From NCBI GenBank assembly GCA_013152945.1, contig JAADFL010000212.1, positions 1 to 64,000 on the forward strand: a stretch of 64,000 nucleotides of DNA. The letters are read 5' to 3'. Shown in pieces: positions 14,448-60,294 of the stretch; within the stretch, counting starts at the first letter, position 1; each line of letters starts with the position of its first letter. Origin of the DNA: Deltaproteobacteria bacterium. Lineage in GTDB: Bacteria; Myxococcota_A; JAADFL01. The notes under the pieces are model-generated. The model did not search any database. It was not told the DNA's origin and saw only the letters and a list, made by a program, of their open reading frames with translations. Position numbers and translations under genes: made by a program.

Positions 14448-14555
14448 ACCATATTTTGGGACATCCTTATTTCTCATGACCCGGAACTTTTTCCACCCAG
14501 GTCCGTCTGTAGAGATATGAAGCCCGGATCCATCAATCGGGCAGGGAGGTGGAGA

Positions 14556-17108
14556 ATGTCGAAGAAGAACAGAAGTCACAGGTATGGTTCCATCGGCGCG
14601 GACAGGACAGGGCAGCCTGCGATGGTCCCATTGATGGCCGCGGTTTTCATGTTGATTCTGGTAGTAGTGTTTTCGGCCATGGTCAGGGCCGGGACAGTGG
14701 ACGGGGAGAGTCACGGCGAGCAGTTGGCCCGTGCCCTTCAGGCATTGCCCGAAGGTGTCAATGACAAGACCCTTTCACCTTTTTTCTTCGTGTTTTCCGA
14801 AAATTCGGACACGGATCGCCTTCCACTAAAGAGCACCAACGCAAAGATCAAAATTGCAGGTGTGGTGGCTGATGTTCATGTGTCCCAGGTGTACAAGAAC
14901 GAAGGGAGAGACACCCTGGAAGCGGTGTACATCTTTCCCGCATCGACCAGGGCCGCGGTGTATTCAATGAGAATGACGGTCGGTGAGCGAATCATCAATG
15001 CGAAGATAAAGAAAAACGCCGAGGCCCGAAAAGATTACGAGCAAGCAGTGGCGGAAGGAAGGACCGCATCCCTCCTTGAACAAAAAAGGCCGAACGTGTT
15101 CCAGATGAGTGTTGGAAACATCTTGCCCGGTGACGAGGTAAAGGTGGAATTATCCTATTTCGAGGTGTTGGTGCCGAGAGATTCGACTTATCAGTTCGTG
15201 TATCCCACGGTAGTGGGCCCAAGATACACGGGTAAAAGCGGTTCCAACGCACGGCCTGAACAGGGATGGACCCATAACCCATACCTGCACCAAGGCGAAA
15301 AGCCCAACTATGCCTTTGGTCTGAACCTCACATTGAGCAGCGCCATGCCGATCGCAGCCGTATCAAGCCCGAGCCACAAGATATCGGTCGAGTACCAAGG
15401 AAAAAACAAGGTCAAGATCGGGCTTGAAAATGGGGAGCATTCCGGAAACAGGGACTTTGTGCTCCGTTACAAATTGGCGGAAGACAAGATTGAAAGTGGG
15501 CTGCTCCTATTTCATGGAGACAGGGAAAACTTTTTCCTAATGATGATGGAACCCCCGCAAAGGGTTCATCCCGAACAGGTAGTGCAAAGAGAATATCTTT
15601 TCATACAGGATGTTTCAGGTTCAATGAATGGATTTCCCCTTGATACCAGCAAGGAGCTGATGAAAAACCTCCTGGCCCGCATGGATGAACACGACTACTT
15701 CAACGTGCTGACATTTGCAGGCGGAAACGAGGTGCTTTCAAGAGAACCGCTTGAGGCAACAAGCAAGAACAAGAGACTGGCCGAAAACTGGCTGAACCAG
15801 TACAGAGGCGGTGGAGGAACAGAGTTGCTGCCTGCTCTCAAAAGAGCCCTCTCGATGCCCAGGACCGAAGGTGTCTCCAGGATAATAGTTGTAATAACAG
15901 ATGGTTATGTAAATGTAGAAAGTGAGGCTTTCAAGCTGATAAGGAAGAACCTGGGCCGGGCCAACTTGTTTGCATTTGGAATAGGAAGCTCTGTGAACCG
16001 CCATCTCATCGAGGGTATGGCCAGGGCCGGCATGGGCGAACCATTCGTTATCTTGAAACCTTCCGAGGCAAGGGCCGAAGCGAAGCACTTCGCAGACTAT
16101 GTGTCTTCACCACTCATGAGGAAGATAAAAATCGAATTTCGGGATTTCGAGGCTTACGATGTTCAACCGTCCGCTATACCGGATCTGTTTGCCGAGAGAC
16201 CTGTTATGGTAATCGGAAAATACAGGGGTGAGGCCGAAGGTTCCATTGTCCTGTCCGGCGAAACATCCATGCAGACCATGTATAAGAAGTTGGAAGTCAA
16301 ACCATACATGGAGTCTCCTGACAATTCCGCTTTGAGATTGCTCTGGGCCAGGAAGAAGATCCGTGAACTTGCAGACCTCGATGCCCTGGGGGCCAAAGGT
16401 GATATTAAAAGCCGGATAACAACCCTTGGACTCGCTTACGGATTACTTACCGCTTACACATCCTTTGTTGCAGTGGACACGGAAATAAGGGCGGATGGAA
16501 GCAAGAGTGTCAGGGTCAGGCAACCTTTACCGATGCCACAGGGTGTATCAGACCTCGCGGTCGGCGGAATGGCCGGATTCGGTGCAACAAGAGGCGCGGG
16601 AAGATACAAGCGGGCTTCCACGGGCTTTTTCGGGAAAATCGTAGGCCTTCTAAATGCGCCTGCTGCAGCGCCGGAACCGGTTTTGGCGACAGGTATGCCT
16701 GATAAGACAACAAGAGAAGACAAAATAAAAGAGAAAAGTATGGATGCCTCCATCAACCAAGTTGCGATCATGTCCTTGAAAGTAGAAACAAGGAACGCTC
16801 ATGAAAAAGGAATAGATCGTGTTGCAAGGCATTCAATGGAGCGTGCCTTGAGCAAGGTGAAGAATATATTGGCCGGGGATATTTCTTCAAAAGCGAAGTA
16901 CATCAAGAAAGTAGTGCTTACGGTCAAAATCGAGATTGCAGCTAATGGTGCGATGAGCGGACTGGATGTCAATATCATGCATCTCAAGGATGTTGGAATA
17001 TCGAATAAGATAGAAGCTGCATTCAATGAGGCGTTCAAGGCTGCAAGATTTCCCTCTTCATCAAGCAAGACAGTGGTGATCTGCAAGGTAATCCTTCGGG
17101 TTCGATGA
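14556..17108 (+). CDS. VIT and vWA domain protein with AgmX/TonB-like C-terminal domain
   Basis: 850 aa from the ATG at 14556, which has GGGAGGTGG upstream; the frame is open further upstream, but that part is antisense to rng. A membrane helix at about residues 24-44 acts as signal or anchor. A VIT domain (inter-alpha-trypsin inhibitor type, about 85-230) with LEAVYIFPASTRAAVYSM follows, then a vWA domain with an intact MIDAS: Asp352-Val-Ser354-Gly-Ser356 and ITDGY. A low-complexity linker leads to a C-terminal ~95-residue domain (VLTVKIEIAANGAMSGLDV ... AARFPSSSS) that resembles the AgmX/PglI TonB-like C-terminus. Probably a periplasmic metal-dependent adhesion or assembly protein. The last domain suggests a link to the TolQ/TolR/FHA-TonB system 4.7 kb downstream; that is inference. 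Confidence 0.85.
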   Translation: MSKKNRSHRYGSIGADRTGQPAMVPLMAAVFMLILVVVFSAMVRAGTVDGESHGEQLARALQALPEGVNDKTLSPFFFVFSENSDTDRLPLKSTNAKIKIAGVVADVHVSQVYKNEGRDTLEAVYIFPASTRAAVYSMRMTVGERIINAKIKKNAEARKDYEQAVAEGRTASLLEQKRPNVFQMSVGNILPGDEVKVELSYFEVLVPRDSTYQFVYPTVVGPRYTGKSGSNARPEQGWTHNPYLHQGEKPNYAFGLNLTLSSAMPIAAVSSPSHKISVEYQGKNKVKIGLENGEHSGNRDFVLRYKLAEDKIESGLLLFHGDRENFFLMMMEPPQRVHPEQVVQREYLFIQDVSGSMNGFPLDTSKELMKNLLARMDEHDYFNVLTFAGGNEVLSREPLEATSKNKRLAENWLNQYRGGGGTELLPALKRALSMPRTEGVSRIIVVITDGYVNVESEAFKLIRKNLGRANLFAFGIGSSVNRHLIEGMARAGMGEPFVILKPSEARAEAKHFADYVSSPLMRKIKIEFRDFEAYDVQPSAIPDLFAERPVMVIGKYRGEAEGSIVLSGETSMQTMYKKLEVKPYMESPDNSALRLLWARKKIRELADLDALGAKGDIKSRITTLGLAYGLLTAYTSFVAVDTEIRADGSKSVRVRQPLPMPQGVSDLAVGGMAGFGATRGAGRYKRASTGFFGKIVGLLNAPAAAPEPVLATGMPDKTTREDKIKEKSMDASINQVAIMSLKVETRNAHEKGIDRVARHSMERALSKVKNILAGDISSKAKYIKKVVLTVKIEIAANGAMSGLDVNIMHLKDVGISNKIEAAFNEAFKAARFPSSSSKTVVICKVILRVR

Positions 17109-17244: not shown

Positions 17245-18345
17245 ATGGCGAGTTGCTGGGCAATCATTTTTCTGGTGTGTGCGGCGGTCCCTCCCACGGG
17301 CCAGGATGAGTCCGGAACCAGGGCCTACTACAAGGCAGTGGGAAGCCAAAGAGCAGGTAAATTTAAACAAGCCCTCGATGCACTGGACGCTCTGGCCCGG
17401 GAACATCCGGAAGACCGGTTTGCGGATGACGCGCTTTTCAGGGGAGCCCAAATATGCGAGCAGGATCTGCTGGACCTGGACTGCGCCTTGAAGAGGTACA
17501 AGAAAATAATTGATTCGTATCAAAGGAGCAGGCTCTTGATCAGGGCCAGGAAGCGTTACAAGTACTTGTCTGAAAACCGTTCTTGTGGAGACAAGCTCTT
17601 GTTGGAATTCGAAAAGATAATCCGGACAACCCCGCTGTCCGACCCGCAAAGGACCAAGGCGGGTATGTCGGGAATGCAAAAGATTTTAAGGGATCATCCA
17701 ACGTTTCCACAGAGAAAAAGGGCCGAATACTGGCTGGCAGAGGCGGATTTCCACTTAGACCATGAAAAGAAGGCGATCGAGAGGCTGAATAAACTGACAA
17801 GAGCAGGGGGAGAATGGTCGGTCCGTGCCAAGTTGAGACTGGCAGATTTATGGATGGCCCGGCGGGAATATGCAAAGGCATTGAGAGAATATGAAGACCT
17901 GGGTAAGTCAACACTGGGCCTTGCAAAGCGGGCCAGGCTTTTCCTGTGGGAGAAACGAAGTGCCATGTTCGGTCTTTTGACATATGTCCTGCTTCTTATG
18001 GCATTGTCGCTATGGATTATCCGGGCTGACAAAGGAACGGGGAAGTTGTGGCCCATGCCGCAGGAATTCACCTTTCTTTTGCCCCTGGGCCTGCTAATCG
18101 TAATGATGGCCATCTCTGCTTCGAGGCTTCTCTGGATGCCGATATCCATCATCGTATTTGCCGGGCTGTTCAGCTTATACCTTTCGGGCGCGGCATTCAG
18201 GGCAAAGGCGCCGGGAATAAAATCCATTGTCGTGTTTTCTTTACTTGGCCTGGGCGGGTGTTTCGGCCTGGTCTTCTTTGTCCTGTATCACTTCCAGCTC
18301 TTGAGTTCAGTCGTTCATACCTGGATATTCGGAGTCAACGGATGA
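17245..18345 (+). CDS. TPR-repeat protein with C-terminal membrane helices
   Basis: 366 aa. A short hydrophobic N-terminus (signal-peptide-like, residues 1-20) is followed by TPR-like repeats (about 25-225, e.g. GKFKQALDALDALAREHPED and REYAKALREYEDLGK). About four membrane helices fill the C-terminal 125 residues (from ~241). The TPR part would lie outside the cytoplasm if the N-terminus is a cleaved signal. The stop overlaps the start of the 67-aa gene by ATGA, and that gene is coupled to a radical SAM enzyme, so the three probably act together. No family recognised beyond TPR; a scaffold or export role for the small protein is a guess. Confidence 0.7.
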   Translation: MASCWAIIFLVCAAVPPTGQDESGTRAYYKAVGSQRAGKFKQALDALDALAREHPEDRFADDALFRGAQICEQDLLDLDCALKRYKKIIDSYQRSRLLIRARKRYKYLSENRSCGDKLLLEFEKIIRTTPLSDPQRTKAGMSGMQKILRDHPTFPQRKRAEYWLAEADFHLDHEKKAIERLNKLTRAGGEWSVRAKLRLADLWMARREYAKALREYEDLGKSTLGLAKRARLFLWEKRSAMFGLLTYVLLLMALSLWIIRADKGTGKLWPMPQEFTFLLPLGLLIVMMAISASRLLWMPISIIVFAGLFSLYLSGAAFRAKAPGIKSIVVFSLLGLGGCFGLVFFVLYHFQLLSSVVHTWIFGVNG

Positions 18346-18545
18346 GACAAAAAAAAGAAAAAACAAGATTTTCACACATCCTATCATTAAAGACAGGGTT
18401 GAACCCAAACTCGAGCTCTCTGGGAGCCAATACCACGTGGCTGTTGGTATGGTCGTCGGCATTGGCGATTTTCGGTCCCGTATTGAGCCTGGCAATTAGA
18501 GGAATTGCAGCCGTACGCAAGAAAGACAAGCCGGGAAACACCTGA
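18342..18545 (+). CDS. 67-aa small protein, candidate substrate of the radical SAM enzyme
   Basis: Small gene coupled on both sides: ATGA with the TPR-membrane protein and TGATG with the radical SAM/SPASM gene. The N-terminal half is polar and basic (MRQKKEKTR...) with an Asn/Ser/Thr-rich patch, LNPNSSSLGANTTW, at residues 20-33. Residues ~33-57 are a hydrophobic stretch like a membrane helix, and the tail is basic (RKKDKPGNT). No Cys. Size and position fit a RiPP precursor whose Asn/Ser/Thr/Trp patch could be modified; equally it could be a small membrane subunit. I recognise no named family. Confidence 0.68.
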   Translation: MRQKKEKTRFSHILSLKTGLNPNSSSLGANTTWLLVWSSALAIFGPVLSLAIRGIAAVRKKDKPGNT

Positions 18546-19765
18546 TGGATTTCAGGCCGGAACATTTCGGCGGACTGCTCCACCTGGCGCATCCCAGGTT
18601 GTTGCTCTGGCTGGATGAGAATCTGGCATCTGTTTTCAAGCAGGACCCGGGGCAGGATGTTTGCCGGCATACGGAATTGACAGAGGGCGGCCCATCTCAA
18701 AGAGAAAGTTTACTTGGCGCTCCCATCGAAGTGCACATGAACCTCTCCGAAAGGTGCTGGACGGGATGCAGCCATTGCTATGTAGATGCAACACCAAGCG
18801 GGCCGGTAATGAATCCTGCACGCGCATGCCGCTTGCTCGACCTCATGGCGGATGCACGAGTATTCCATGTAGCCCTGGGAGGAGGAGAACCCCTGGACTA
18901 TCCCGCGCTCCTGGAGGTGGCGCATCATGCCAGGAAGAGAGGAATCGTGCCCAATCTTACGACCAGCGGAACAGGTCTGAACGAAAAAACGGCATTTCGA
19001 CTTACAAGGGTGTTCGGCCAGATCAATGTGAGCTTGGATGTGCCGCCCGGACAGGGTGATTCGTTCAGGAGTGACTTGCATGTTGCCGAACAGTCCCTTG
19101 TAATGTTGAGGAAATATTCGAAAAACGTTGGAATAAACATGGTGTTGTCCAGGAAGACTTTCAGGCAACTGAACAAGATCATTGCACTTGCCTCAAAACT
19201 TGGGCTTGGCGAGGTGGAACTGCTGCGATTGAAACCCGGCGGCAGGGCTTCCTCAATTTACGAAAAAGAGCGAATTACCGCAAGCCAGGGCATTGAGCTT
19301 TTGCCGAGGGTTCTTTCCCTGGCTATCAAGTACAGGACCGCGATTCGAATGGATTGTTCCCTGGCCCCTTTTATCTATTACCACAGGCCCAATCTTGACG
19401 TGCTGTCATTTTTCAATATCCGGGGCTGTGAGGCGGGAAACATGTTGGCGGGTGTCGATGCCTCTGGAAATTTAAAGGCATGCTCATTTTCGCCGTGGAT
19501 CGAGGGACCGGCCGAGCACATGCTCGATTTTTTCGGCAACAAGGGGGCGTTCACAATTTTCAATGAATTGGAGCAGACCCTCGGCGAACCTTGCGCCTCG
19601 TGTGATTACCTCGAACTCTGCCGGGGCGGTTGCAGGGCTGTTGCGTACTTTCTGACAGGTCAGGCATCTTCGCCGGACCCGGAATGCCCGGTTGTGCTTG
19701 GATTACCTTCTCCATATGTTTCCTTGAAGACAGCTATGATCTCCTGGATAGGAAGGTCTGAATAG
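18545..19765 (+). CDS. Radical SAM/SPASM domain protein (RiPP-maturase type)
   Basis: 406 aa. The radical SAM [4Fe-4S] motif is Cys71-X3-Cys75-X2-Cys78 (CWTGCSHC). The SPASM pattern is complete: Cys295-X12-Gly-X4-Cys313, then Cys350-X2-Cys353-X5-Cys359-X3-Cys363, then Cys381, i.e. two auxiliary clusters. The N-terminus FRPEHFGGLL resembles the RPExxGG opening of peptide-modifying radical SAM proteins. SPASM enzymes commonly modify ribosomal peptides or act as anaerobic sulfatase maturases; the small gene directly upstream makes a peptide substrate plausible. The start codon overlaps the stop of the 67-aa gene. The last 106 bp overlap the 3' end of the oppositely oriented transglutaminase-like gene. 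Confidence 0.9.
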   Translation: MDFRPEHFGGLLHLAHPRLLLWLDENLASVFKQDPGQDVCRHTELTEGGPSQRESLLGAPIEVHMNLSERCWTGCSHCYVDATPSGPVMNPARACRLLDLMADARVFHVALGGGEPLDYPALLEVAHHARKRGIVPNLTTSGTGLNEKTAFRLTRVFGQINVSLDVPPGQGDSFRSDLHVAEQSLVMLRKYSKNVGINMVLSRKTFRQLNKIIALASKLGLGEVELLRLKPGGRASSIYEKERITASQGIELLPRVLSLAIKYRTAIRMDCSLAPFIYYHRPNLDVLSFFNIRGCEAGNMLAGVDASGNLKACSFSPWIEGPAEHMLDFFGNKGAFTIFNELEQTLGEPCASCDYLELCRGGCRAVAYFLTGQASSPDPECPVVLGLPSPYVSLKTAMISWIGRSE

Positions 19766-48084: not shown

Positions 48085-49134
48085 TCATTCTGCTTCCCGC
48101 CTGAATTCCTTGATCTTTTTAGCATTGTCACCGATCTCCATCAGAGGCCTGCGACGCATTCTGTGGGGCAGGGCCATTTCGGCCGCGGTTTCTATGTCGC
48201 TCTTTTCCACCTTTTCGCGTTGAGAGAAAGCGGCCAGGGCCTTGGCCGCCTTCATCATGATAATGTCTCCACGGTGGCCGTCCACGCCGACCTCGAGGCA
48301 AAAGTCAGCAATATTAAAAAGCTGGTCCCGTTCGATCACCACCTTTGGATAGAGTCTGCGGGCAATCTCGATCCTGTCCGATAGTTCCCTGGATTTTTTG
48401 GCCCATCGGGCTGCGAAACCAGTCGAATCCTCATCAAAGGCCACGCGCCTCTCCATGACCTCAACCCTGTCATTTCGATCCATGATGCCCTCAACATGAA
48501 CGGAAAGGCCGAACCGATCAAGAAGCTGGGGCCTAAGCTCTCCCTCCTCCGGGTTCATGGTGCCTACCAGTACGAAGCGTGCCGGGTGCGAGAATGAAAC
48601 GCCTTCCCGTTCTATGGTATTGAATCCCATGGCAGCGGCATCGAGAAGGATATCTACGACATGGTCGTCAAGAAGATTCACCTCATCCACGTACAGGATT
48701 CCCCTATGGGCTGCGGCCAAAAGCCCCGGTTCGATTTGTTTTTCTCCTTTCTTTATTGCATGCTCCAGGTTTAATGTGCCTACTACACGGTCTTCAGTAG
48801 CGCCGACAGGCAGTTCCACCACCCGAATATGACGACGAAATATACCCTCTGTTTTGTCGCCGCCAAGCCGTTTTTCCCGGCAATCAAGCCGGAAGCATTC
48901 CCGGCAGAGGCCGACACCGTCATCCGGGGCCAACTGGAAGGGGCAGCCCTCGATCACTTCGATCTCAGGCAGTATATCGGCAAGGGCCCGTACAGCAGTG
49001 GATTTCGCTGTCCCTTTTTCCCCTCGAATCAGTACTCCTGAAATGGTGGGATTAATCAGGTTGAGATATAAAGCCAGTTTCATTTTCTCTTGACCCACGA
49101 TGGCTGCAAACGGATAAATGCTTTGATGGCTCAT
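48085..49134 (-). CDS. Magnesium/cobalt chelatase ATPase subunit I (ChlI/BchI-like)
   Basis: 349 aa AAA+ ATPase. Walker [10 protein letters not shown], Walker [13 protein letters not shown], sensor [13 protein letters not shown] and the ChlI-type [15 protein letters not shown] loop are present. An insertion with four Cys ([14 protein letters not shown]) near residues 77-88 could bind metal. AAGGAG precedes the ATG. It supplies ATP-driven remodelling for the CobN chelatase together with the upstream ChlD-like gene, of which it is a close paralog over the AAA domain. Confidence 0.93.
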
Positions 49135-49152
49135 GTTAATCTCCTTGAAAGA

Positions 49153-51174
49153 TTACTCTTGTTTGACCAGCCCCACCAGGGTATCCGCCTTCAGCCCTTC
49201 TGTCTGAAAGTAACGGGCGCCCAGTGCCTCGGCTATCTTTCCGGCCATGCCGAAACGGACGAGTCCCTGTTCCTCGGTGTCCACAACAATGAAACGGACC
49301 CGCTTATCCGGGCCCAGGTGATGTGCAATTTCTATACACTCGTCCATAGGTTTGCCTCTGTTGAGGGAAACATTGCTCCGGCCGTCGGTAATGAGTACCA
49401 CGATGGGCCTTGATGTTGGATCACGGACGAACTGGGAACGCAAAAGGTCGCCGGTCTTGACCAGAGCGGAATTGAGCGGGGTCCGGCCGCCAACCGGCAG
49501 TTCGGTGAGCATGCGGGCAGCTATGTCGATGGACGAGGTTGGCGGAAGAGCAAGTTTGGCCTCTGCCTTGTTAAAAGAGATCATAGCCACCTTGTCCCTT
49601 TTCTGGTACGCGTCAAGAAGAAGAGACATGATCGCCCCTTTGGTGGCTACCATTCTCCCGCGTGCTCCCATGGAGCCGCTGGCATCCACTACAAAAAGCA
49701 GAAAATTACCCAACCGCCTCTCACGGATCTTTATCCGGATATCCTGGGGCTCGATGGCAATGGCACAGGCGCTTCGGCGCCCACGCTGATGAGGAGCCGC
49801 AGCCCTAAGGGTGGCGTCCAGGGCCACATCTGTTGAACCCCGGGGCAAGGTGCTCATGACATAGCGTCCATTAAGGCCGTTTACACGGCTGCGGGAACGA
49901 CGGCCCGAACCGCGGCGGAAAACCCGGTCCTTGGTCATCGAAAAGGGTTTAACCCTGAAGGTGGCTCCTACCTCGAAAATCTTTTGCAGTGTCTCGGGAT
50001 TGACCGGAGTTTCAGACTCTTTGTTTTTTTCCGGATTTTCAACCGGCTTTTCACAGGTGTTGTTGCCCTCATTTTCTCGGGATTTGGGGGCAGGAGCTGG
50101 TCCTGACTTTTGCTCCGGCTTTTTATTTTTTTCTTGGTCAGTTTCTTCCGGCCGGTTCCGATCATGGGGCCGGCCGTGATTCTCCTCTTCTTCTTTGTCC
50201 TGCGCTTGAGGGGGCGAAGCTTCCCGTTGCCTGTGGAGCAGGACCATATGCGCCACCCGTAGAATATCCTCCTTTGTCACCTCGGTCCGTTCCGAAAAGG
50301 CTGTAAGTGCCCGGGCCGCCTGCTCCATGACAAGATCGGCCCGGTGGCCGGCCACCCGGGCTTCAGCGCATACCTCGCCTATCAAAACCCGCAGGTGGCC
50401 CGAGATTAGCACCTTGGACAAAAGTAGGCGGGCGCGCAATATGCGTTCTCTCAAAGTACGTACCTCACTATCGAACCGATTGACATAATCTGAAGGATTT
50501 TCATCAAAGGCATCACGCCGTTCCATGGTAATAACCCGCGCTCTGCGATCTTTTTCCGCCTTTACCTCAACACAGAGTCCGAACCGGTCCAGGAACTGCG
50601 GACGAATTTCTCCTTCCTCGGGATTCATGGTGCCGATGAGAATAAAATGTGCAGGATGGGAAAAGGATACCCCCTCGCGCTCGATAGTGTTGACACCGGA
50701 TGCAGCCGCCGAAAGTATAATATCCACTATGTGATCGTCCAAAAGGTTGACCTCATCCACGTAAAGTATGCCATGGTTGCAACGGGCAAGGAGTCCGGGA
50801 AGGATTTTTCGTTGGCCCGTGCGAATGGTCTTTTCAAAATCGATCCCTCCAACCACGCGATCCTCGGTGGCGTTCAGGGGCAAGGTCACTACCTGCACAG
50901 GCCGTCGAACCGCAGGTCTTCTTCCTTCACAAAGCCTGCAGCCCTTGCAGAATCCATCCGTTTCTTCAGTCCCCAGGGAGAAGAAACATCCTTCAAGGAC
51001 TTCGATCTCCGGTAACAAGGCGGCCAGGGCCCGCACTGCAGTGGACTTGGCCGTGCCCTTTTCCCCACGAATCAACACTCCCTCCACCCGAGGATTAACG
51101 GCATTCAAGAGCAGCGCAAGTTTCAGTTCTTCCTGGCCGACGATTGCAGGGAAGGGGAATGTATCAATGCTCAT
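49153..51174 (-). CDS. Chelatase subunit D-like protein: AAA+ domain plus vWA domain
   Basis: 673 aa. The N-terminal AAA+ domain (1-330) retains an intact Walker [10 protein letters not shown] and Walker [12 protein letters not shown], unlike many ChlD/BchD proteins. A Glu/Pro/Lys-rich linker (about 335-395) leads to a C-terminal vWA domain with MIDAS DASGSMGARGRM and ITDGRSN. A Cys-rich loop CKGCRLCEG lies near residue 75. The vWA domain normally docks on the large chelatase subunit through a MIDAS ion. It overlaps CobN by 11 bp. Combined features make it an I-D fusion type, commonly found next to CobN paralogs. Confidence 0.93.
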   Translation of the reverse strand: MSIDTFPFPAIVGQEELKLALLLNAVNPRVEGVLIRGEKGTAKSTAVRALAALLPEIEVLEGCFFSLGTEETDGFCKGCRLCEGRRPAVRRPVQVVTLPLNATEDRVVGGIDFEKTIRTGQRKILPGLLARCNHGILYVDEVNLLDDHIVDIILSAAASGVNTIEREGVSFSHPAHFILIGTMNPEEGEIRPQFLDRFGLCVEVKAEKDRRARVITMERRDAFDENPSDYVNRFDSEVRTLRERILRARLLLSKVLISGHLRVLIGEVCAEARVAGHRADLVMEQAARALTAFSERTEVTKEDILRVAHMVLLHRQREASPPQAQDKEEEENHGRPHDRNRPEETDQEKNKKPEQKSGPAPAPKSRENEGNNTCEKPVENPEKNKESETPVNPETLQKIFEVGATFRVKPFSMTKDRVFRRGSGRRSRSRVNGLNGRYVMSTLPRGSTDVALDATLRAAAPHQRGRRSACAIAIEPQDIRIKIRERRLGNFLLFVVDASGSMGARGRMVATKGAIMSLLLDAYQKRDKVAMISFNKAEAKLALPPTSSIDIAARMLTELPVGGRTPLNSALVKTGDLLRSQFVRDPTSRPIVVLITDGRSNVSLNRGKPMDECIEIAHHLGPDKRVRFIVVDTEEQGLVRFGMAGKIAEALGARYFQTEGLKADTLVGLVKQE

Positions 51175-54100
51175 GTTTCAACCCCAACCCGCCCAGTACC
51201 TTTCCTATCTCTACCTTCCAGTCCTCAATGTCATCTGCGGTCATGACATCCACGCTGCCGCCCTGGAACTCACCGGTGACCTCACCCATGGTGTCTTCTA
51301 TGGAACCTTCCACCTCCAGGTAGGCTTCTTTCAATTGTTCCAGGCGTTCCTCGTCCGGTTGCCAGATGCCCCGGCTTGCGGCCTCCAGAAGTCTCCGGCC
51401 AATCTCCTCCAGTGCCCAGGGATTGACCTTCTTGAACCACCTTCTCATCTCTTCGTTCAATACAAAGGTTTCCGTGATCTCATCGAGTATCCAATTGTCC
51501 ACTTCTCCCGTGGTTGCAGCAAAGCCGTATACCCGGCCGATTCGCTTGGAAAGATCGCCGGCACCTTTATACCCGTGCTCTTTCATCCCCTTGATGTATT
51601 TGGGGTTGAGCAGTTTTGCCCGGACAACCCGCCGCATCTCATCAGCAAAGTCAGTGACACCGACCCGGGCAGGGTCACGGGTGTCACCATAATAATTGCG
51701 GGGTCTTTTGCCGGAAAGGGTCTTGGCCGCTACGCTCATCCCGCCGTAATTACTGAAGTAACCGCAACAACTAAGAAAATCTCCTTCGTCGGATATATGC
51801 TTGTCGAAAATCGCCTCCACGCGCCGCAGATTCGCCACCAATTCCTTGTGGGCTTGAACGCCGTAAGCTGCATCTCCTGCACCCCCACCGTATGCATACC
51901 CGTTCCAGAAAAAGTATACATCGGAGATGTCGGCCTCTGTCTTCCATGCAGATGCATAGACCGCAAGATCTACGCCGGCCCTGTAGACACCTGGTTGTGC
52001 GCAGAAGATCCTGAAGGAAAGCCTCCTGAATGTTTCGGGATCGGATAATTTCGCGTTTTCCTCGCGGGCCTGTTCCAGTATATGCTTCCGGATGAAATTT
52101 TCCTCTGGTTTCTCCTCCAGCACGGCTACAGCTTGGATAGCCTGATCAACGTATTTCACAGAGCCGGGAAAGCAATCGCGGGTTATGCCTGATACCCGGA
52201 TATTCACGTCGATTCGGGGTCTGCCAAGATCGACAGGCGGGATTATCTCTATACCGTCCACCTGGCCGTTACCCTTCCATCGCGGACGCACACCGAGAAG
52301 ATGGAGAATCTGGCCGATCTGCTCTCCATCGGCCCGCATGATGTCGGATGCCAGCCAGACCATGCCGACGCTCTCGGGATATTGTTCCTCATCCTTTAGA
52401 AAGCGTTCCAGCAGGGCTTCAGCCAATCGAACGCCTACCCGGTAGGCGGCCCTGGTGGGAATGCGGGTGGGATCCACATTGTAGAAGTTTCGGCCGGTAG
52501 GCAGGATATCGTACCGGCCACGGGAGAGATACCCGGAAGGACCGGCCGGCACGTAGCCGCCGTCCATTGCACTCAAAAGAGAATCTATCTCCCGGGATTC
52601 GGTAAGCCGCTGATCAATCTCCGTGACAAGGCCGGCAAAGCGCTCAAAACGTTCCCTTGTGCAAGCCGGTTCCAGGTGGCCCCGGGCCAGCCCCCTGAAG
52701 AGATTGTCATGTGAAAATCCTCGTATCAGGCTGTGGATGAGATCCACGGCCTGCCGGTCGGCTAAAAAGAGCAGATCACTGTACGTCTTTCCGTTTTTGC
52801 CCCGGTCGGCTGGATAATCCAGGGCCTTGTCCATGTCCTCTCCCCAGAGGTCGAACACAAGGCGCCTGGTATTGAGTTCATTGTTGCTGTCGAATCGAAG
52901 GATGGTGTTGATGGTCTCGGCGCGGTTCATGTCCTCCGGCACCTCGCCGAAGACATGCATACCAATCCGGGTTTGGCTGTTCTTGATCCCTGAAATAATT
53001 TGGTGGCATTGCTTGACCACATCGCTGAAATTCGCCGGATTATTGGCTTCCACCTCCCCGGTGAGATGTGTTTTTTCCATGACCTCGCGAATCAGGTGCT
53101 CCAACTGATGGGCCCTTGCAGGGTCTGTATTCGATGCCCGGTTGTACTCCTCCAGGAGTTCTTCAAGCTCTTCAAAACCGCCATAGGTGTCGGCGGTATT
53201 CATCACGGCCTGAAGGTGGTCCACCAGGACTGCGTAACTGCGCCGCTTCGCTATCACTCCCTCGGCAGGATTATCTGCATTATAGATATAGAGGTGAGGC
53301 ACGGCGCCGATGGCGATATCGGGCCAGCAGTCGGATGAAAGCCCTGCTCCTTTACCCGGGAGCCACTCCAGGTTACCGTGGGTGCCAACGTGAATAATGA
53401 CGTCAGCGCCGAAAACCTTGTCCATGTACATGTACGTAGCGATGTACTGATGCGGCGGGGGGATGTCCGGATCATGCAGAATTTTGCACACACGGCCGTC
53501 GCAGCGGGCCCCGGCGCAGCCGCGCTTGGGTTGCATAATAATATTAATGTTGCCGAAATTCAGGCCTGTGATGACAAGCTTCCCATCATAGACCATGCTC
53601 GGCGGCACACCATTCATCTTCCTGCCCGGAGGCTCTCCCCAGGCATGAACGATCTGTCTCTTGGCTTTTTGGGGCAAGGAATCAAACCACTCCCGGTAAA
53701 TAGCGTTGTCCAGCAATGCAAGGTGACCCCCCTTGCTGACAATCTCGTCCACAGTGGTCCAGCGGAACTCGGCTATGGCCTTTCTCGAAAGAATGGTCTG
53801 CATCAGAGACTCCCCGGACACTGGGAGTCTCTCGACCCGGTAACCGGCTTCCTTCATGCTCCTCATGATTTGCACTATCGACTCGCCGGAATCAAGGCCT
53901 GCCGCCCCTCCGACCCCGGCCTCGAGGCCTGCGCACTCGTTTTTATGTAATACAAAGACTGCCTTGCGGTCGCAAATCGGCTTTTCCGCCAAGCGGACGA
54001 AGCGCGCAATGCGTTCAGCAATGTGTTCCACCCGATCCTTGATCACTTCCCGCAACTCAAAGATTGATCCGGTCTTTTCGTCCGTGAGTTTCCTGCTGCA

Positions 54101-55084
54101 GGCCATGAGGATCGGTTCGATGTTGCCCTCGAACTCGGGCATGGCGATGCCGAATGTCACGTCCATGGTAAGACCCTGCGGATCCTCCTCCCACTCGTCC
54201 ACGGTCTTGGAATAGGAAACGACGGGTTTGAACACCGGCACGTTGAGTTCCCTGAAAAAGTTCACTGACTGGGCTGCTACTCCCGTCTCTGAGATGTCGG
54301 ACCGGGCCTCTCGCCCGAGAAAGAAAAATTGGAGATTGACCAATGCATCGATTCCAACAGTTCCATCCGGACGGATGAAGAACCTGCGACAACTCTCGAT
54401 TGGCCCAAGAGACCCTGCCTCCTGATCGGGCGTCCCGTGGGAAAATACGGGAAGCACGTCGAAACCCCTGGCCTCAAGCGCCTCAATGAGGGAGCGTTCC
54501 AAAGAAGCGTCGGTATTGGTAAAACTATGGCGCGAAAATAGAAGCCCTACCGTGTGGGCCCGCCCGGACGGATGCGCCTTGCGGTATTCTTCCACAGATG
54601 CGTACACCTTCTGATCCGGCGGGTGCAATATCCCCTGCCACGGCATGGGCAGGGGGTCCTGCACCGGGATTTCCGGATCCACTTGGTGGGCTAGGAATTC
54701 AAGCAGCCTCCGGTAGTTCTCTTTTCCGCCCTCTGCAAGATACGTGTAAGCCCTGGCGCAGATGGAAATATCTACAGTGGAATTTCGTCCCCAGTCGCTC
54801 GGGTCAAAAGACGTGGTGACGATAACCTTGTCCGGTGCGATCTCATCCAGGCGGGCACTGACCTCGGGCCAGAAACCATCCGAGGTCCGGTAAAGTAAAA
54901 TGATATGGGCCTTTTCCGCAGCAACCAGGAAGTCGTCCACCAGATCCATATCGTTTTCCAGCTCTTTTTGGGAGAAAATATCAAGTTTGATATCAAAGCT
55001 TTCCCGGGTCGCCTCCAAAAAAACCGGTACATATGAGCCCCACATGATAGATGCTATTCGGATTGGACGATTAACTTTGATCAA
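51164..55084 (-). CDS. cobN: Cobaltochelatase CobN subunit / CobN-like metal chelatase
   Basis: 1306 aa, full length for the CobN/ChlH family that inserts a metal ion into a corrin or porphyrin ring. The conserved core IIHVGTHGNLEWLPGKGAG lies near residues 560-578 and HDPDIPPPHQYIATY just before it. Upstream of that, near residue 520, is a three-Cys segment, GCAGARCDGRVC, absent from classical aerobic CobN. Start TTG with GGGAGG upstream, in TTGA overlap with the ATPase gene. No other corrin-ring synthesis gene is in the window. The substrate and metal (Co, Ni, Mg or other) are therefore open; the neighbours suggest it acts on an imported chelate or on a locally made ligand. Confidence 0.92.
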   Translation of the reverse strand: MIKVNRPIRIASIMWGSYVPVFLEATRESFDIKLDIFSQKELENDMDLVDDFLVAAEKAHIILLYRTSDGFWPEVSARLDEIAPDKVIVTTSFDPSDWGRNSTVDISICARAYTYLAEGGKENYRRLLEFLAHQVDPEIPVQDPLPMPWQGILHPPDQKVYASVEEYRKAHPSGRAHTVGLLFSRHSFTNTDASLERSLIEALEARGFDVLPVFSHGTPDQEAGSLGPIESCRRFFIRPDGTVGIDALVNLQFFFLGREARSDISETGVAAQSVNFFRELNVPVFKPVVSYSKTVDEWEEDPQGLTMDVTFGIAMPEFEGNIEPILMACSRKLTDEKTGSIFELREVIKDRVEHIAERIARFVRLAEKPICDRKAVFVLHKNECAGLEAGVGGAAGLDSGESIVQIMRSMKEAGYRVERLPVSGESLMQTILSRKAIAEFRWTTVDEIVSKGGHLALLDNAIYREWFDSLPQKAKRQIVHAWGEPPGRKMNGVPPSMVYDGKLVITGLNFGNINIIMQPKRGCAGARCDGRVCKILHDPDIPPPHQYIATYMYMDKVFGADVIIHVGTHGNLEWLPGKGAGLSSDCWPDIAIGAVPHLYIYNADNPAEGVIAKRRSYAVLVDHLQAVMNTADTYGGFEELEELLEEYNRASNTDPARAHQLEHLIREVMEKTHLTGEVEANNPANFSDVVKQCHQIISGIKNSQTRIGMHVFGEVPEDMNRAETINTILRFDSNNELNTRRLVFDLWGEDMDKALDYPADRGKNGKTYSDLLFLADRQAVDLIHSLIRGFSHDNLFRGLARGHLEPACTRERFERFAGLVTEIDQRLTESREIDSLLSAMDGGYVPAGPSGYLSRGRYDILPTGRNFYNVDPTRIPTRAAYRVGVRLAEALLERFLKDEEQYPESVGMVWLASDIMRADGEQIGQILHLLGVRPRWKGNGQVDGIEIIPPVDLGRPRIDVNIRVSGITRDCFPGSVKYVDQAIQAVAVLEEKPEENFIRKHILEQAREENAKLSDPETFRRLSFRIFCAQPGVYRAGVDLAVYASAWKTEADISDVYFFWNGYAYGGGAGDAAYGVQAHKELVANLRRVEAIFDKHISDEGDFLSCCGYFSNYGGMSVAAKTLSGKRPRNYYGDTRDPARVGVTDFADEMRRVVRAKLLNPKYIKGMKEHGYKGAGDLSKRIGRVYGFAATTGEVDNWILDEITETFVLNEEMRRWFKKVNPWALEEIGRRLLEAASRGIWQPDEERLEQLKEAYLEVEGSIEDTMGEVTGEFQGGSVDVMTADDIEDWKVEIGKVLGGLGLKHEH

Positions 55085-55911
55085 TTTTTCCTCCCGGACG
55101 CGCTTAAACGGTTCGGCAGCCGGCCTGGTTTATCCAGTTCTTGTTCCCCGGAACAACACAGGACTTGAACGTTGAGATATCCGTTGTCCCGGGTGACAAT
55201 GGATTCCACGCCGTACACGTCACGAATCTTCGCCGGGGTTACAATCTCGGCCGGCACACCTGCGCTGAAAATTTTTCCGTGGTGAAGTAAAATAATTCTG
55301 TCCGAAAACCTTGCGGCCAGATTCAGGTCATGCATAGCCATCATCACGCCTATCCCCTTGCCTTTCGCCAGTGCGGCTACAGTTTCCAGGAGTTCCATTT
55401 GATGGCGTAAATCAAGGCCGGAATTAGGCTCATCGAGCAAGAGATAACGTGTATCCTGGATCATGGTTCTGGCAAGCAGAACCTTCTGCACCTGACCGGA
55501 GCTCAACTGATCCATATCCCTCATGGACAACTCGGACAGTTCCATCTCTTCGATTATTGTTTCCACCTTTTCCAGATCCTTCAGGGACGGTCTCCAGGCA
55601 AAATAAGGTCTTCGCCCGGAAAGGATTGTATCAAACACAGTGCCCGGAAAGCGGAAAAACATGGATTGCGGCATATAGGCCAATTGCTTTGCGATTTCTC
55701 TCCGCGGCATGCCAAGAGCGTCTCTGCCGTCCAAGTGTACAGTTCCAAGTGTAGGCTTGAGTATACCGGAGATACATTTCAGCAATGTGGTCTTTCCGGC
55801 CCCATTGGGCCCGACTATACTTACAACTCCGCCCTTTTCCACGCTTGCCCTGACAGCGGCCAGCACCTTGTTGCCGTTATATTCGAAAAAGATTCCCCTT
55901 GCCTCAAGCAT
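55081..55911 (-). CDS. ABC transporter ATP-binding protein (FecE/BtuD-like)
   Basis: 276 aa. Walker A GPNGAGKTT, signature LSSGQVQKV, Walker B YLLLDEP and switch His MAMHDLNLAA are present, the pattern of iron-siderophore/B12 importers. The ATG at 55911 overlaps the permease stop (TGATG), and the open frame upstream of it is only a shadow of the permease gene. It energises the FecCD-type permease with the binding protein two genes upstream. Confidence 0.95.
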   Translation of the reverse strand: MLEARGIFFEYNGNKVLAAVRASVEKGGVVSIVGPNGAGKTTLLKCISGILKPTLGTVHLDGRDALGMPRREIAKQLAYMPQSMFFRFPGTVFDTILSGRRPYFAWRPSLKDLEKVETIIEEMELSELSMRDMDQLSSGQVQKVLLARTMIQDTRYLLLDEPNSGLDLRHQMELLETVAALAKGKGIGVMMAMHDLNLAARFSDRIILLHHGKIFSAGVPAEIVTPAKIRDVYGVESIVTRDNGYLNVQVLCCSGEQELDKPGRLPNRLSASGRKN

Positions 55912-56945
55912 CACCAATACTCCCTGGTTCGTTTCATTAAAAGGAAAACAAAGAACGGCACGCCGATAAAAGAAGTCACGATTCCGATGGGTATCACCAG
56001 GGGCGTCCAGAGGGTCCTGCCTGCCGTGTCCGCAGCCACAAGAATAATCCCTCCCACCAGCCCGGAACCTGCCAGCAGGAACCTGTGGTCGTTTCCAATG
56101 ATCATGCGCGTAATGTGTGGGGCTACAAGCCCAATGAACCCGATGACCCCGGTGAAGCTGATACAGCCGGCGGTTATCAGAGACGCCGCCGCCACACTCC
56201 ATATCCTCAATCGATCAGGGTTGACCCCCAATGCCATGGCAGACTCGTCGCCGTAGGCCAGGAGATTAAAATCCCACGCACTACGTAGAAGCAGCGGAAA
56301 TGGAGCAAGAATCATGACGGCAGCCAATCCGATTTCAGGCCATCCTACCCTGGAAAGACTGCCGAAAAACCAAAATACGATTTCATAAACCTGTTGCATG
56401 GTTCCTGTGTATTGGAAAAGGGAAGTAAGTGATGAAAACAGAAACATCAATGCTATACCCGACAGGATCATGGTCTCGGATGAGGCCTTTTTCAACTTGG
56501 CTATTAGAATCATGACAGCCGCTGATAACAGGGAAAAAAGAAATGCACCGCCGGCCACTCCATAGAGGAGACTTCCAGTGCCCAAAAAAATAATGGCAGT
56601 TACGGCTCCGAACCCTGCGGCCGATCCCACGCCAAGCGTAAAAGGTGAAGCGAGCGGGTTGCAAAGAACGACTTGAAATATCGTACCGGCCACCCCAAGC
56701 CCGAAGCCCACAAGTACGGCCATTAGAATACGGGGAAATCTCAGCATCCAGATGATACCAAAGCTGCGGCCCGTATCTTTGAATAAAGATGCAAGCACTG
56801 TCCCAAGCCCAATGCCGGACGCACCCACACATAGACCGATTGCCATGACAGTAAGAAGCACGAGGCACAGGGAGACCAGAAAAAAAATTTTTCTTTTGAT
56901 GTCGGCTTCATAGCTTATAAAGACGGCTTCAACACCAGTACTCAT
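55911..56945 (-). CDS. FecCD/BtuC-type ABC transporter permease
   Basis: 344 aa with about ten membrane helices. The family landmarks RFPRILMAVLVGFGLGVAG, NPLASPFTLGVGSAAGFGA and GLVAPHITRMIIGNDHR (coupling region) are present. The ATG at 56945 makes an ATGA overlap with the binding-protein gene. Imports siderophore, heme, cobalamin or a related chelate; the next gene upstream is a matching binding protein. Confidence 0.95.
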   Translation of the reverse strand: MSTGVEAVFISYEADIKRKIFFLVSLCLVLLTVMAIGLCVGASGIGLGTVLASLFKDTGRSFGIIWMLRFPRILMAVLVGFGLGVAGTIFQVVLCNPLASPFTLGVGSAAGFGAVTAIIFLGTGSLLYGVAGGAFLFSLLSAAVMILIAKLKKASSETMILSGIALMFLFSSLTSLFQYTGTMQQVYEIVFWFFGSLSRVGWPEIGLAAVMILAPFPLLLRSAWDFNLLAYGDESAMALGVNPDRLRIWSVAAASLITAGCISFTGVIGFIGLVAPHITRMIIGNDHRFLLAGSGLVGGIILVAADTAGRTLWTPLVIPIGIVTSFIGVPFFVFLLMKRTREYW

Positions 56946-58006
56946 TTGCCGGTCTCCTGAAAACCGCTTGATACATAAACACCGCGGTAGGATATACCCT
57001 GAAAAATCTCGATGTATTCCCTGTGCCATGCCTTTGGATCCAGGTCGGGAAAAAGTTTTGGATAAAACCACCGTGCCAGGTAAGCCATGCCGATGATAGC
57101 ACGTGGCCCGGTCCAAATGGCGCTGTCCATTACATGGACCCTTCCGTAAGCTACGGCCGCTATGTGTTGCCAGGCCGGGCGCTTCATGATTTCCTCTTTT
57201 TGCCTGTTGAAAACCGCAGGGGTCTTGAGGGAGTACCCGCCACCCCAGGCTGCCGCTTTTACTATTACGTCCGGGTTTTGGGAAACCACCCACTCAGGTG
57301 TTACCCGGGGGTACGGGATAGAAAATCCGGAGGCGATATTTCTCCCACCAGCGAGCGTGCACATATCGTGGCCCCCGGATCCCGGCGCTACTGTGTGGTA
57401 GTCCGTATAGTTTTCGATATAGACTGAAGTCCTTTTTTTCACCAGCCCAAGCCTTTTTATTAGTTTGTCCAAGTGAAGTTTGTGCCAATCACAAAAACGC
57501 CTGGCCTCCTTTTCCCGCCCCAGAAGACGCCCCATGGTCATGACCTCGCGTTCCAGCGTGTCCTCCTTGTAGAAATCGAGGCGAAGGACCTTGACACCGA
57601 ACGGGGCCATCTTTTTCTCCAGTTCCGGTCCGGGGTTGCGGCTGTATGCAACGACTATGTCGGGATGCAGGGCGACAATGGCCTCGATGTTTGCCTCACG
57701 CCAACTGCCTACCCTGGATTTTTGGGCCAGGTCGCCCCAGAAATCCCGGTTCCGCACGATCTCGGAAAAGACCCCGACAACCAGATCCTGGGCCTTCAGG
57801 GTTCGAAGAACCTCCAGAACATCCGAGTTCAGAGCCACTATCCGCTTGATGGGTAGAGAGACCTCGATTTTTCTACCCATGGAGTCCAAAACTGTTATGG
57901 AAGTACCAAGTGCGGTTTTTCCCTGCAACAGGATAGACATTGCAACCAGCATCCGACAAAAGTGTAAAAGTCTTTTCTGGGAAACAATAGTGTGCATGTC
58001 AATCAT
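56942..58006 (-). CDS. Periplasmic substrate-binding protein (FecB/BtuF-like)
   Basis: 354 aa. The N-terminal hydrophobic segment (about 15-35, MLVAMSILLQGKTALG) acts as signal peptide, followed by the class III binding-protein fold: RIVALNSDVLEVLRTL, ANIEAIVALHPDIVVAY and a long connecting helix. No lipobox Cys, so it is periplasmic and soluble. It delivers a chelate to the FecCD-type permease. The start could be Met4, since both codons lie close together. It follows the TonB receptor by 14 bp. Confidence 0.93.
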   Translation of the reverse strand: MIDMHTIVSQKRLLHFCRMLVAMSILLQGKTALGTSITVLDSMGRKIEVSLPIKRIVALNSDVLEVLRTLKAQDLVVGVFSEIVRNRDFWGDLAQKSRVGSWREANIEAIVALHPDIVVAYSRNPGPELEKKMAPFGVKVLRLDFYKEDTLEREVMTMGRLLGREKEARRFCDWHKLHLDKLIKRLGLVKKRTSVYIENYTDYHTVAPGSGGHDMCTLAGGRNIASGFSIPYPRVTPEWVVSQNPDVIVKAAAWGGGYSLKTPAVFNRQKEEIMKRPAWQHIAAVAYGRVHVMDSAIWTGPRAIIGMAYLARWFYPKLFPDLDPKAWHREYIEIFQGISYRGVYVSSGFQETGK

Positions 58007-58020
58007 GTTGCATGGGCTTC

Positions 58021-60294
58021 CTAGTACCTCGCCATGGCGTTTAGATACACTGCACGACCCGGCGAGCGATAGTACGAGTAGTAATGTTTGTCGAGAATAT
58101 TATTTGCCAGCACGCCGACCCTGAAATGTTTGCCTATTTGGTAATGCAATGCGGCGTCCAGCAGGAAATGCTCGTCGAAACTTCCGTACACCCCGCTGTA
58201 AGTATCCCTGTTCTCGTCGTCGCGGTATGCCTTACCTATCCAACTTCCCCGCAGCCTAAAAGTCAGGCCTTCAAATTTCATTCCCAACCAGCCGAAATAT
58301 ATATTTTTGGGCATATAAGTGGTGATTTTTCCTTCTGTTTGCGGCCTTGCGGAATTCGATGTAATTCGAGGATACTGATAGGTAAGCCCGGCTCCAAGTT
58401 CAAGCCATTTTGTAACTCGTTCGCTCAATTTCAGTTCCAGGCCTTCCACCCTTGCCTCTGCGGCATTTAATTTCTGTTTTGTCTTTTCGTCGATGCTGGC
58501 GGTGTAAATCATGTTGTCAACAAAGCTCATGAACCAAACGATATTTGACTTGAAGCCGATTTGTCTGATCCTGGATACCAGGCCTGCTTCCCAGCTCCAT
58601 GTCCTCTCCGGTTTGAGTTTTGGGTTCGGCTTGTACGTGGTGCCGTAAAATGACCAGGTTTTGTAAAGTTCGTAAACGGTCGGCGGTCTGAAAGCTCTGC
58701 CTGCAGCAAAATTAAAACCGAGGAATTTCCATGGGTGGTAACTAACTCCGATCCTGGGATTGATGGCTGTTTCATTGTTTGCAGGATAGGTATCCTTAAG
58801 CCCGGCCTGGACATCTTCGCTTTTGCCATCATAGTTCCTCCATATGTCCAACCTGGCTCCTGCCGAGACAATGATCTTGTCATGCAGGATGCTCCATTGA
58901 TCGAGCAGGAACAGGCCCCCATTGAATGCCTTGCCCTGGGTGGATGTGAGCATACCGTTCCTGGTACCTGTATCCCGCCAGTTTCCAAGTGATTCAGACA
59001 CACTCGCGGCTGCTGGGAAAAAAAGGGAAAGCCCTCCTGCCAGATTGTTTCCGGCAAACAGGGCGGCATTAAGCTGCAACTCGGAATATACATTGAGGGA
59101 CTGCGTGAAGTTGTACTTGCCCGGACCTCCGAAATTATCAGCTCCGCTTTTCGGCATTGAGTACCATCCCTCACGGTGCACGGCTCCCAACTTTGCAGAC
59201 AGTGAAAGCCAGTTTGTGATTGTTGCTTTTGTTCGAATCCTTGCAATTCTGCATATGTTTTCTGAAAAGTTCTCCATCATGTTATAAGGACTAAGACTGA
59301 AATAATGCGTATCATCGGCCGTAATTTTTCCCGAGTATATGGGTTCTCCGGAATCTGTAAAAAGGTATGTATGGGCATCGGAATAACCATAGTTGAAACG
59401 GCCCTCCGTGTATCCTATATTCAGGTCCAGGAATTTCCATGGATGAAAGTACAGGTCTATGTTCGCCCCCCAGACATTGTCGTGATTATTTCCCTTATCT
59501 CCCACCAGATAGGCGGGATCCCCTTTGCTGGTAGTAGTCTTGTTCCATCCCGAGGCTGCAATTTCACCTGAACCTGTTTTCTCGGTTCTTACAACTTCTG
59601 CAGTCGGGTAACCACCGATGTACGTCCAATGGGCGGAAACCTTGAGGGAGAACCAATCCGTGAGCTTTTCACCATAGCTTCCGGCTAATCGCCCGGTAGA
59701 AAAGCTCCCGGCCGTTGTATCAAGTTCGATCTTCCTCTTTACAGGCTCGAACGAGCGAATATTTATCACCCCGCCCATGGCATATCCGCCGTAAGCCGGG
59801 GATGCGGGCCCGCTTAACAATTCAATCCTGTCCGCCATATCAGGTGAAATAGCCCACCATGGTACGCCTCCGCTGTAGCCGCCGTTCATGGGTATGCCAT
59901 TTATCATGACCAGATTCTGTTTATTCGAGCCAAAGCCCCTGATGAATACACCTGCCAGTGAATCCATGGGCTTTGCGTGCCTTACCCATACTCCTGTCAA
60001 ATTCGAGAAGGCCTCGTCCAGAGTCTGCACATTCCAGTCTTGCCAATCCCGTTTATTAAGGACCTGAACCTCGAAAGGTATCTTTTCAGGGTCGCTGTTG
60101 ATCCGTGTCGCCATAACCCTGGTTTCATAAATCAAAGCCTTAGGTTTTTTTTTCTTTTTATCAGTTCTCGCTTTTTCATTATTGGTTTTCCCTCGATTTT
60201 CCGATGTATCCTTCTCATGAGCCCACACCGGTTGCGACAGCGAAATCAACGCTATGGAACACAGCAGTAAGACCAACTTGATTGAACCAGGCAT
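58021..60294 (-). CDS. TonB-dependent outer membrane receptor
   Basis: 757 aa. Signal peptide ending VWA/HEK, then a Lys-rich linker and a TonB-box-like ETRVMATRI. The plug domain follows (about 75-185, GVFIRGFGSNKQNLVMINGI and GPASPAYGGYAMGGVINI) and then a 22-strand barrel. The last residues (VYLNAMARY) end in an aromatic as expected. AAAGGAGGT precedes the ATG. First gene of the nine-gene operon; it brings a large or scarce chelate (siderophore, heme, corrinoid or Ni/Co chelate) through the outer membrane. A specific ligand cannot be named. Confidence 0.95.
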   Translation of the reverse strand: MPGSIKLVLLLCSIALISLSQPVWAHEKDTSENRGKTNNEKARTDKKKKKPKALIYETRVMATRINSDPEKIPFEVQVLNKRDWQDWNVQTLDEAFSNLTGVWVRHAKPMDSLAGVFIRGFGSNKQNLVMINGIPMNGGYSGGVPWWAISPDMADRIELLSGPASPAYGGYAMGGVINIRSFEPVKRKIELDTTAGSFSTGRLAGSYGEKLTDWFSLKVSAHWTYIGGYPTAEVVRTEKTGSGEIAASGWNKTTTSKGDPAYLVGDKGNNHDNVWGANIDLYFHPWKFLDLNIGYTEGRFNYGYSDAHTYLFTDSGEPIYSGKITADDTHYFSLSPYNMMENFSENICRIARIRTKATITNWLSLSAKLGAVHREGWYSMPKSGADNFGGPGKYNFTQSLNVYSELQLNAALFAGNNLAGGLSLFFPAAASVSESLGNWRDTGTRNGMLTSTQGKAFNGGLFLLDQWSILHDKIIVSAGARLDIWRNYDGKSEDVQAGLKDTYPANNETAINPRIGVSYHPWKFLGFNFAAGRAFRPPTVYELYKTWSFYGTTYKPNPKLKPERTWSWEAGLVSRIRQIGFKSNIVWFMSFVDNMIYTASIDEKTKQKLNAAEARVEGLELKLSERVTKWLELGAGLTYQYPRITSNSARPQTEGKITTYMPKNIYFGWLGMKFEGLTFRLRGSWIGKAYRDDENRDTYSGVYGSFDEHFLLDAALHYQIGKHFRVGVLANNILDKHYYSYYRSPGRAVYLNAMARY

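Follow-up and report, generated by a model that had tools for sequence, protein, structure and literature searches.

A radical SAM/SPASM enzyme and a small protein with a near-fixed decamer as a probable enzyme-substrate module

Within the window, that is, the whole stretch of 64,000 nucleotides analyzed here, three genes at positions 17245-19765 encode a TPR/membrane protein, a protein of 67 residues (P0003) and a radical SAM/SPASM enzyme (P0002) (Table 1). The TGA stop of the TPR reading frame (18343-18345) overlaps the ATG of the small gene at 18342 (ATGA), and the TGA stop of the latter (18543-18545) overlaps the ATG of the enzyme gene at 18545 (TGATG), so the overlapping starts and stops noted in a preliminary description of this DNA are confirmed by the ORF coordinates. 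The TPR protein carries a putative signal sequence and, in its C-terminal part, about four membrane helices; its matches to TPR profiles of the YbgF/BamD type are below cut-off. Just upstream of the trio lies a gene for a protein with VIT and von Willebrand A domains (14535-17108, +), which is not a recurrent neighbor at other loci, and a gene for a transglutaminase-core protein (PF01841; 19660-20340, -) converges on the enzyme gene, running into its 3' end. Farther along the window, the ORF translations suggest a cobalamin block at positions 48085-60294 (-), in which CobN-like and ChlI/D-like genes accompany a BtuF/C/D-like transporter and a TonB receptor.

Table 1. Features of the three-gene locus (window coordinates) and loci at which motif peptides lie apart from an enzyme gene.
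Feature	Position or loci	Strand	Basis or remark
TPR/membrane protein, 366 aa	17245..18345	+	ORF; upstream partner of peptide gene
67-aa peptide P0003, predicted substrate	18342..18545	+	Member of GxNPN[S/C]SSxG family
Basic strand-like segment FSHILSLKT, residues 10-18	18369..18395	+	Counterpart of homologues' G[RK][IV]LRVKx
Core decamer GLNPNSSSLG, residues 19-28	18396..18425	+	Predicted modification site
Hydrophobic helix, residues 33-58, predicted membrane anchor	18438..18515	+	Sequence, family helix hydrophobicity
Radical SAM/SPASM enzyme P0002, 406 aa	18545..19765	+	ORF, profile matches
N-terminal beta-beta-beta and short helix, predicted substrate docking	18545..18628	+	AlphaFold secondary structure
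CxxxCxxC (C71, C75, C78), SAM-cluster ligands	18755..18778	+	Invariant in 62 aligned sequences
SPASM region, eight conserved Cys	19355..19687	+	C271, 295, 313, 350, 353, 359, 363, 381
Unlinked peptides, TRAP	L227-L230
Unlinked peptides, TPR-DUF3857-transglutaminase	L225/L233/L234/L238/L239
Unlinked peptides, purple-acid-phosphatase-like	L226/L237

The sequence of P0003 is MRQKKEKTRFSHILSLKTGLNPNSSSLGANTTWLLVWSSALAIFGPVLSLAIRGIAAVRKKDKPGNT. As the preliminary description stated, it contains no Cys and has an Asn/Ser patch (residues 20-33, LNPNSSSLGANTTW) ahead of a hydrophobic segment; nor does it belong to a named family, since Pfam and NCBIfam describe none for it, and no family over cut-off for three relatives. 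P0003 scores E=1.9e-14 against the profile of its own family within its own genome, and the motif recurs beside orthologous enzymes in many lineages, which together indicate that the ORF is more than chance. Family members share the motif GxNPNSSSxG followed by a hydrophobic helix, with one clade showing Gx[SAG][PA]NCS[SA]xG instead. Conservation was measured in 128 distinct peptides that scored at least 25 bits against the family profile; this profile was built from regex seeds, so some bias remains, whereas in an earlier table of regex-selected peptides the fixed positions are invariant by construction. The profile-selected set does include exceptions to the motif (GYNANSSSLS, GFNPNSSSIA and GHRPSCSSAG). 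Among its 128 peptides, G1 is found in 127, N5 in 126, S7 in 128, S8 in 118 and G10 in 124, and position 6 is occupied only by Ser (75 peptides) or Cys (53 peptides). In the regex-selected table, residue 3 of the motif is N in the Ser clade and A, G or S in the Cys clade. Mean pairwise identity drops from 0.67 within the decamer to 0.33 in the N-terminal stretch that precedes it and to 0.22 in the helix. This places the patch at residues 20-33 at the conserved heart of the protein, rather than the membrane helix.

Ahead of the decamer, columns -9 to -1 of the regex-selected homologues are conserved as G-[RK]-[IV]-L-x-[VI]-K, and the equivalent residues 10-18 of P0003 are predicted to be an element recognized by the enzyme. 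Within the decamer, Ser24 (position 6) would be the residue most likely modified, a choice that is not certain because Asn5 and Ser7 match position 6 in conservation. In the Ser class, Arg and Lys are in excess before the motif relative to the region after the helix in 50 peptides, against 8 with the opposite bias, and this N-in distribution of charge favors a cytoplasmic motif. The family is apparently undescribed, consisting of tiny, presumably membrane-anchored proteins that carry a near-fixed tag of ten residues: the string NPNSSS was not found in the literature searched, a literature search for a matching system found none, and a plasmid search with a Geobacterales peptide gave no match.

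Regarding the enzyme, P0002 belongs to the radical SAM superfamily (Pfam Radical_SAM, 40.7 bits for a cut-off of 29.5) and carries a SPASM domain (TIGR04085, 38.1 bits for a cut-off of 27). The pattern of seven Cys initially recognized (C295-C313-C350-C353-C359-C363-C381) is present, and an eighth, C271, is likewise conserved without exception in 62 aligned homologues. None of the NCBIfam equivalogs passed among the best 25 matches listed. The best of these, MftC, NirJ/AhbD, PqqE and GeoRSP, all fall far below cut-off, and assignments to mycofactocin MftC (117.4 bits for a TIGR03962 cut-off of 265), PqqE (84.2 bits; TIGR02109, 381) and the GeoRSP radical SAM protein (82.7 bits; TIGR04303, 400) were rejected. 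The AlphaFold model (pLDDT 89, pTM 0.89) has SuiB as its best fold match (Z 27.8 over 367 residues, 3.6 Å), followed by SkfB (26.1), PqqE (24.1) and anSME (22.9), and its residues 1-383 align with residues 8-439 of SuiB, the N-terminal sheet included. Against PDB sequences, the profile of the enzyme scores 113 bits for PqqE, 88 for SkfB, 70 for SuiB and 60 for anSME. Before the core of the model there are three strands and one short helix, an arrangement that is only partly RRE-like, as three helices are required (PMC12710340). By type, the enzyme is a SPASM peptide maturase of a separate subfamily, for which modification of a peptide is predicted, its genetic link to the small protein being strong. 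A defense role was discarded because all that PADLOC yields are weak matches to viperin, which arise from the radical SAM core common to both.

Relatives of the enzyme, 35-42% identical, were found in 14 of the 56 other genomes first searched, with peptide relatives beside several of them. Profile searches of 377 genomes from the phylum of the window then detected the enzyme in 84 and the peptide in 81: 80 genomes have both, 4 only the enzyme, 1 only the peptide and 292 neither. Among the four with only the enzyme, the match lies at or near a contig end or is partial in three (G095, G155 and G288) and is weak in the other (G376), and the single peptide-only case (G152) is a doubtful match of 26 bits. 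Moreover, two enzymes occur in exactly the five genomes with two peptides (G001, G291, G338, G367 and G369). In a second, independent lineage, 244 genomes of Desulfuromonadia, both profiles pick the same 4. The Fisher p values, about 1e-75 for the 377 genomes and about 7e-9 for Desulfuromonadia, ignore kinship, so more weight is given to the match in copy number, the second lineage and the fusions described below. The small-ORF/SPASM pair proposed at the outset is thus near-perfectly maintained, and a peptide conserved only in its helix and occurring without the enzyme, which would have spoken against it, is not what is seen, as the peptide is almost never found alone. Within the stretches fetched around the enzyme, a peptide-profile match is present at 147 of 185 redundant loci and for 111 of 139 dereplicated enzyme rows; one enzyme often faces two different peptides, and some genomes carry the peptide gene at a site apart from the enzyme gene.

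The pair is recorded in lineages labeled as Myxococcota, Geobacterales, Desulfobacteraceae, Planctomycetota, Spirochaetales, Aminicenantes, Elusimicrobia, Kiritimatiellales and Chitinispirillaceae, and in one Bacteroidales-labeled bin. Most of these records are metagenome bins, so the labels may err; a named strain among them is Geomesophilobacter sediminis. The order TPR-peptide-enzyme recurs, with the TPR gene directly upstream of the peptide gene in Geobacterales, Kofleriaceae and other loci, and the overlapping trio is also seen at one locus of the Cys clade (L052). In the Planctomycetota type, a second type of TPR gene is placed between peptide and enzyme. A long form (L102, L105, L117 and L121) comprises TPR, a first peptide, a TlpA/ResA-like protein, a metallophosphoesterase with a thiol-redox membrane part (the latter recognized by eye), a second peptide, TPR, the enzyme and a DUF2950-like protein. 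For example, the gene between the two motif peptides of L102 (893-3175) encodes a calcineurin-type phosphoesterase domain (Pfam) at its N-terminal side and, by eye, a CxxC thioredoxin-like stretch followed by DsbD/CcdA-like membrane helices. Overall, TPR, TlpA and phosphoesterase genes are the recurrent neighbors. Unlinked peptides lie just downstream of genes for exported proteins (TRAP solute-binding and TPR-transglutaminase proteins) or within or close to purple-acid-phosphatase-like genes, these families being confirmed by Pfam for L229, L239 and L226 and assigned by sequence similarity for the remainder. Since such peptides follow TPR-transglutaminase proteins elsewhere, a link with the PF01841 gene of the window is possible.

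Other neighbors are more local. Downstream of the enzyme, six loci (L043, L048, L066, L087, L099 and L189) encode a small multi-helix membrane protein, possibly haem-binding, with a conserved His and the motif YPxYR...KEH, for which no Pfam family scores above cut-off. At L039, a second, paralogous radical SAM ORF is located about 4 kb upstream (-4354 to -3251 relative to the enzyme), and the enzyme copy there has no peptide nearby. The Kinase-PPPase gene that adjoins the enzyme in Kofleriaceae seems to be there by chance.

On the enzyme tree (139 rows, calculated by a quick method with SH-aLRT as its sole support), the change from Ser to Cys at position 6 requires one step and the fusion of peptide and enzyme three. 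In-frame fusions, with the peptide at the N terminus of the enzyme, make up 30 of the 139 rows, and all 30 belong to the Cys clade; this count includes at least one row (L051) with a close unfused relative (L192). Alignment of the enzyme's N-terminal sheet fails in 17 of 30 fused rows against 2 of 82 unfused ones, as would fit a substrate-docking element made needless by fusion, although high divergence in one clade could contribute to this difference. In the fused proteins the helix sits between the motif and the enzyme, so a true membrane-spanning helix would place them on opposite sides; the helices of the fused clade are less hydrophobic, which eases this problem of sidedness but does not remove it.

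Taken together, the three genes probably constitute a dedicated enzyme-substrate module, in which the enzyme would modify the decamer, with position 6 as the most likely site. There is strong support for the peptide being the substrate of the enzyme, and the idea of a new peptide-modification system with the patch as its site, advanced in the preliminary description, gains from the family, the pairing and the fusions, the modification itself being a prediction. According to this mechanism, the enzyme would recognize the basic, strand-like stretch ahead of the decamer and bind the small protein there, probably by letting the three-stranded sheet at its own N terminus pair with the G[RK][IV]LxVK strand. 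The decamer would then be presented to the SAM site and oxidatively modified on the cytoplasmic side, at Ser24 here and at the equivalent Cys in the sister clade. The following helix would keep the product in the membrane, where it may work with the co-encoded envelope TPR protein. As to the chemistry, a tentative first guess is the conversion of Ser or Cys to C-alpha-formylglycine, because a strict Ser/Cys site is what the formylglycine-forming anSME accepts (PMC5682303). Ether, thioether or other cross-links come next and, taken together, are a serious possibility that still falls short of probable; epimerisation or another change would follow. The thiol-redox, phosphoesterase and TPR partners point to a function in the envelope, as judged from the gene neighborhoods. 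It is conceivable, if rather speculative, that the product is a widely distributed, membrane-embedded peptide cofactor, whose fixed loop would be converted to a reactive group such as formylglycine and would serve envelope proteins (the TPR proteins and the thiol-redox and phosphoesterase partners), and in two clades the enzyme would carry and modify its own substrate.

Other explanations should be weighed against these data. Somewhat unlikely is a sactipeptide- or ranthipeptide-like product, with Cys6 joined by a thioether to a neighboring residue or Ser6 by an ether in the Ser clade. The closest folds include SuiB, SkfB and CteB, and Cys is fixed in one clade, but P0003 and the whole Ser clade have no Cys and no conserved acceptor co-varies with position 6 except residue 3. 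The likelihood assigned to it overlaps that of the module, because a cross-link would be one of the reactions open to the same pair of enzyme and substrate. Here the expectation that a protein lacking Cys calls for chemistry other than a Cys thioether stands for this member, but not for the large clade that has Cys in place of this Ser. We consider it less likely that the small protein is an adaptor or anchor, whose motif would dock on the enzyme, as PqqD does for PqqE, and recruit it to the membrane or to a further target, for instance the TPR protein. An obligate subunit would give equally tight co-occurrence and fusion, the TPR gene is a recurrent neighbor, and the peptide remains attached to the enzyme in the fused clades. 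Nonetheless, a near-invariant decamer with a strict Ser/Cys position is more typical of a reaction site than of a binding surface, and neither the frequent presence of two different peptides for one enzyme nor the location of the peptide gene in several genomes, distant from the enzyme gene and next to other genes of the envelope, would be expected of a subunit.

A secreted RiPP antibiotic or signal, with the decamer excised and exported after modification, would agree with a precursor-like gene adjoining a SPASM enzyme and with TPR and membrane proteins that could act in export. However, antibiotic cores usually vary, whereas this core is near-identical across many phyla; the decamer precedes the helix instead of being C-terminal; and, unlike in most RiPP clusters, no peptidase or ABC exporter was noticed among the recurrent neighbor clusters examined, which makes this proposal improbable. 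Indeed, the near-fixed motif across many labeled phyla, the one-to-one pairing and the fusions speak for a conserved role in the cell and not for an antibiotic. Finally, it is scarcely credible that the enzyme is a misplaced sulfatase maturase or cofactor enzyme (of the MftC, PqqE, NirJ or AhbD type) and the small ORF an unrelated hitch-hiker. Its best NCBIfam scores are indeed to MftC, NirJ and PqqE, but even MftC reaches just 117 of 265 bits; moreover, the small ORF accompanies the enzyme in two phyla, and fusions of the two occur. Likewise, grouping with sulfatase maturases beside sulfatases, raised at the outset as a contrary outcome, is opposed by the profile scores and by the location of the two sulfatase genes of this genome on contigs C45 and C158, with the trio on C212.

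If the module is as proposed, it would add a class of SPASM substrates that is membrane-anchored, has a helix after the core and needs neither Cys nor an aromatic residue, and it would give a function to enzymes annotated so far merely as SPASM-domain proteins. Moreover, the mass change of the natural Ser-to-Cys variant would distinguish the possible reactions. The pairing of a SPASM enzyme with a peptide is a kind already known; no described family was found in our searches for this particular pair.

Among the known systems, anSME also has an eight-Cys SPASM domain, and its use of Cys or Ser (PMC5682303) matches the strict Ser/Cys position 6. However, the decamer has no C/S-x-P-x-R target motif and no sulfatase is adjacent here; for want of this motif, and with a PDB-profile score lower than those of PqqE, SkfB and SuiB, classification as a sulfatase maturase was rejected. 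Membership in the sactipeptides or ranthipeptides was likewise discarded for lack of the Cys donors, position 6 being Ser in most of the family. GeoRSP and other NCBIfam SPASM cassettes are similarly SPASM enzymes in relatives of Geobacter and in other phyla, but no GeoRSP partner proteins lie beside the enzyme in the window. By sequence profile, PqqE/PqqA and MftC/MftA are the closest, and here too the core is conserved, as for a cofactor; in contrast, the fixed positions of the decamer include neither Tyr nor Glu-Tyr, and no PqqD- or MftB-like gene is found beside the enzyme in the window. SuiB/SuiA (streptide) and SkfB/SkfA resemble the trio in having a SPASM enzyme with a small peptide encoded alongside. 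SuiB and SkfB are the best fold matches, yet they are only 18% and 13% identical to P0002, and the substrate here would be membrane-anchored, lacks Cys (in this member) and the conserved Lys-Trp pair, and bears a motif fixed across phyla. In borosins (omphalotin OphMA), the substrate peptide is fused to the modifying enzyme, an unrelated methyltransferase with its substrate at the C terminus, and in this fusion of substrate and enzyme they are like two clades of the family described here.
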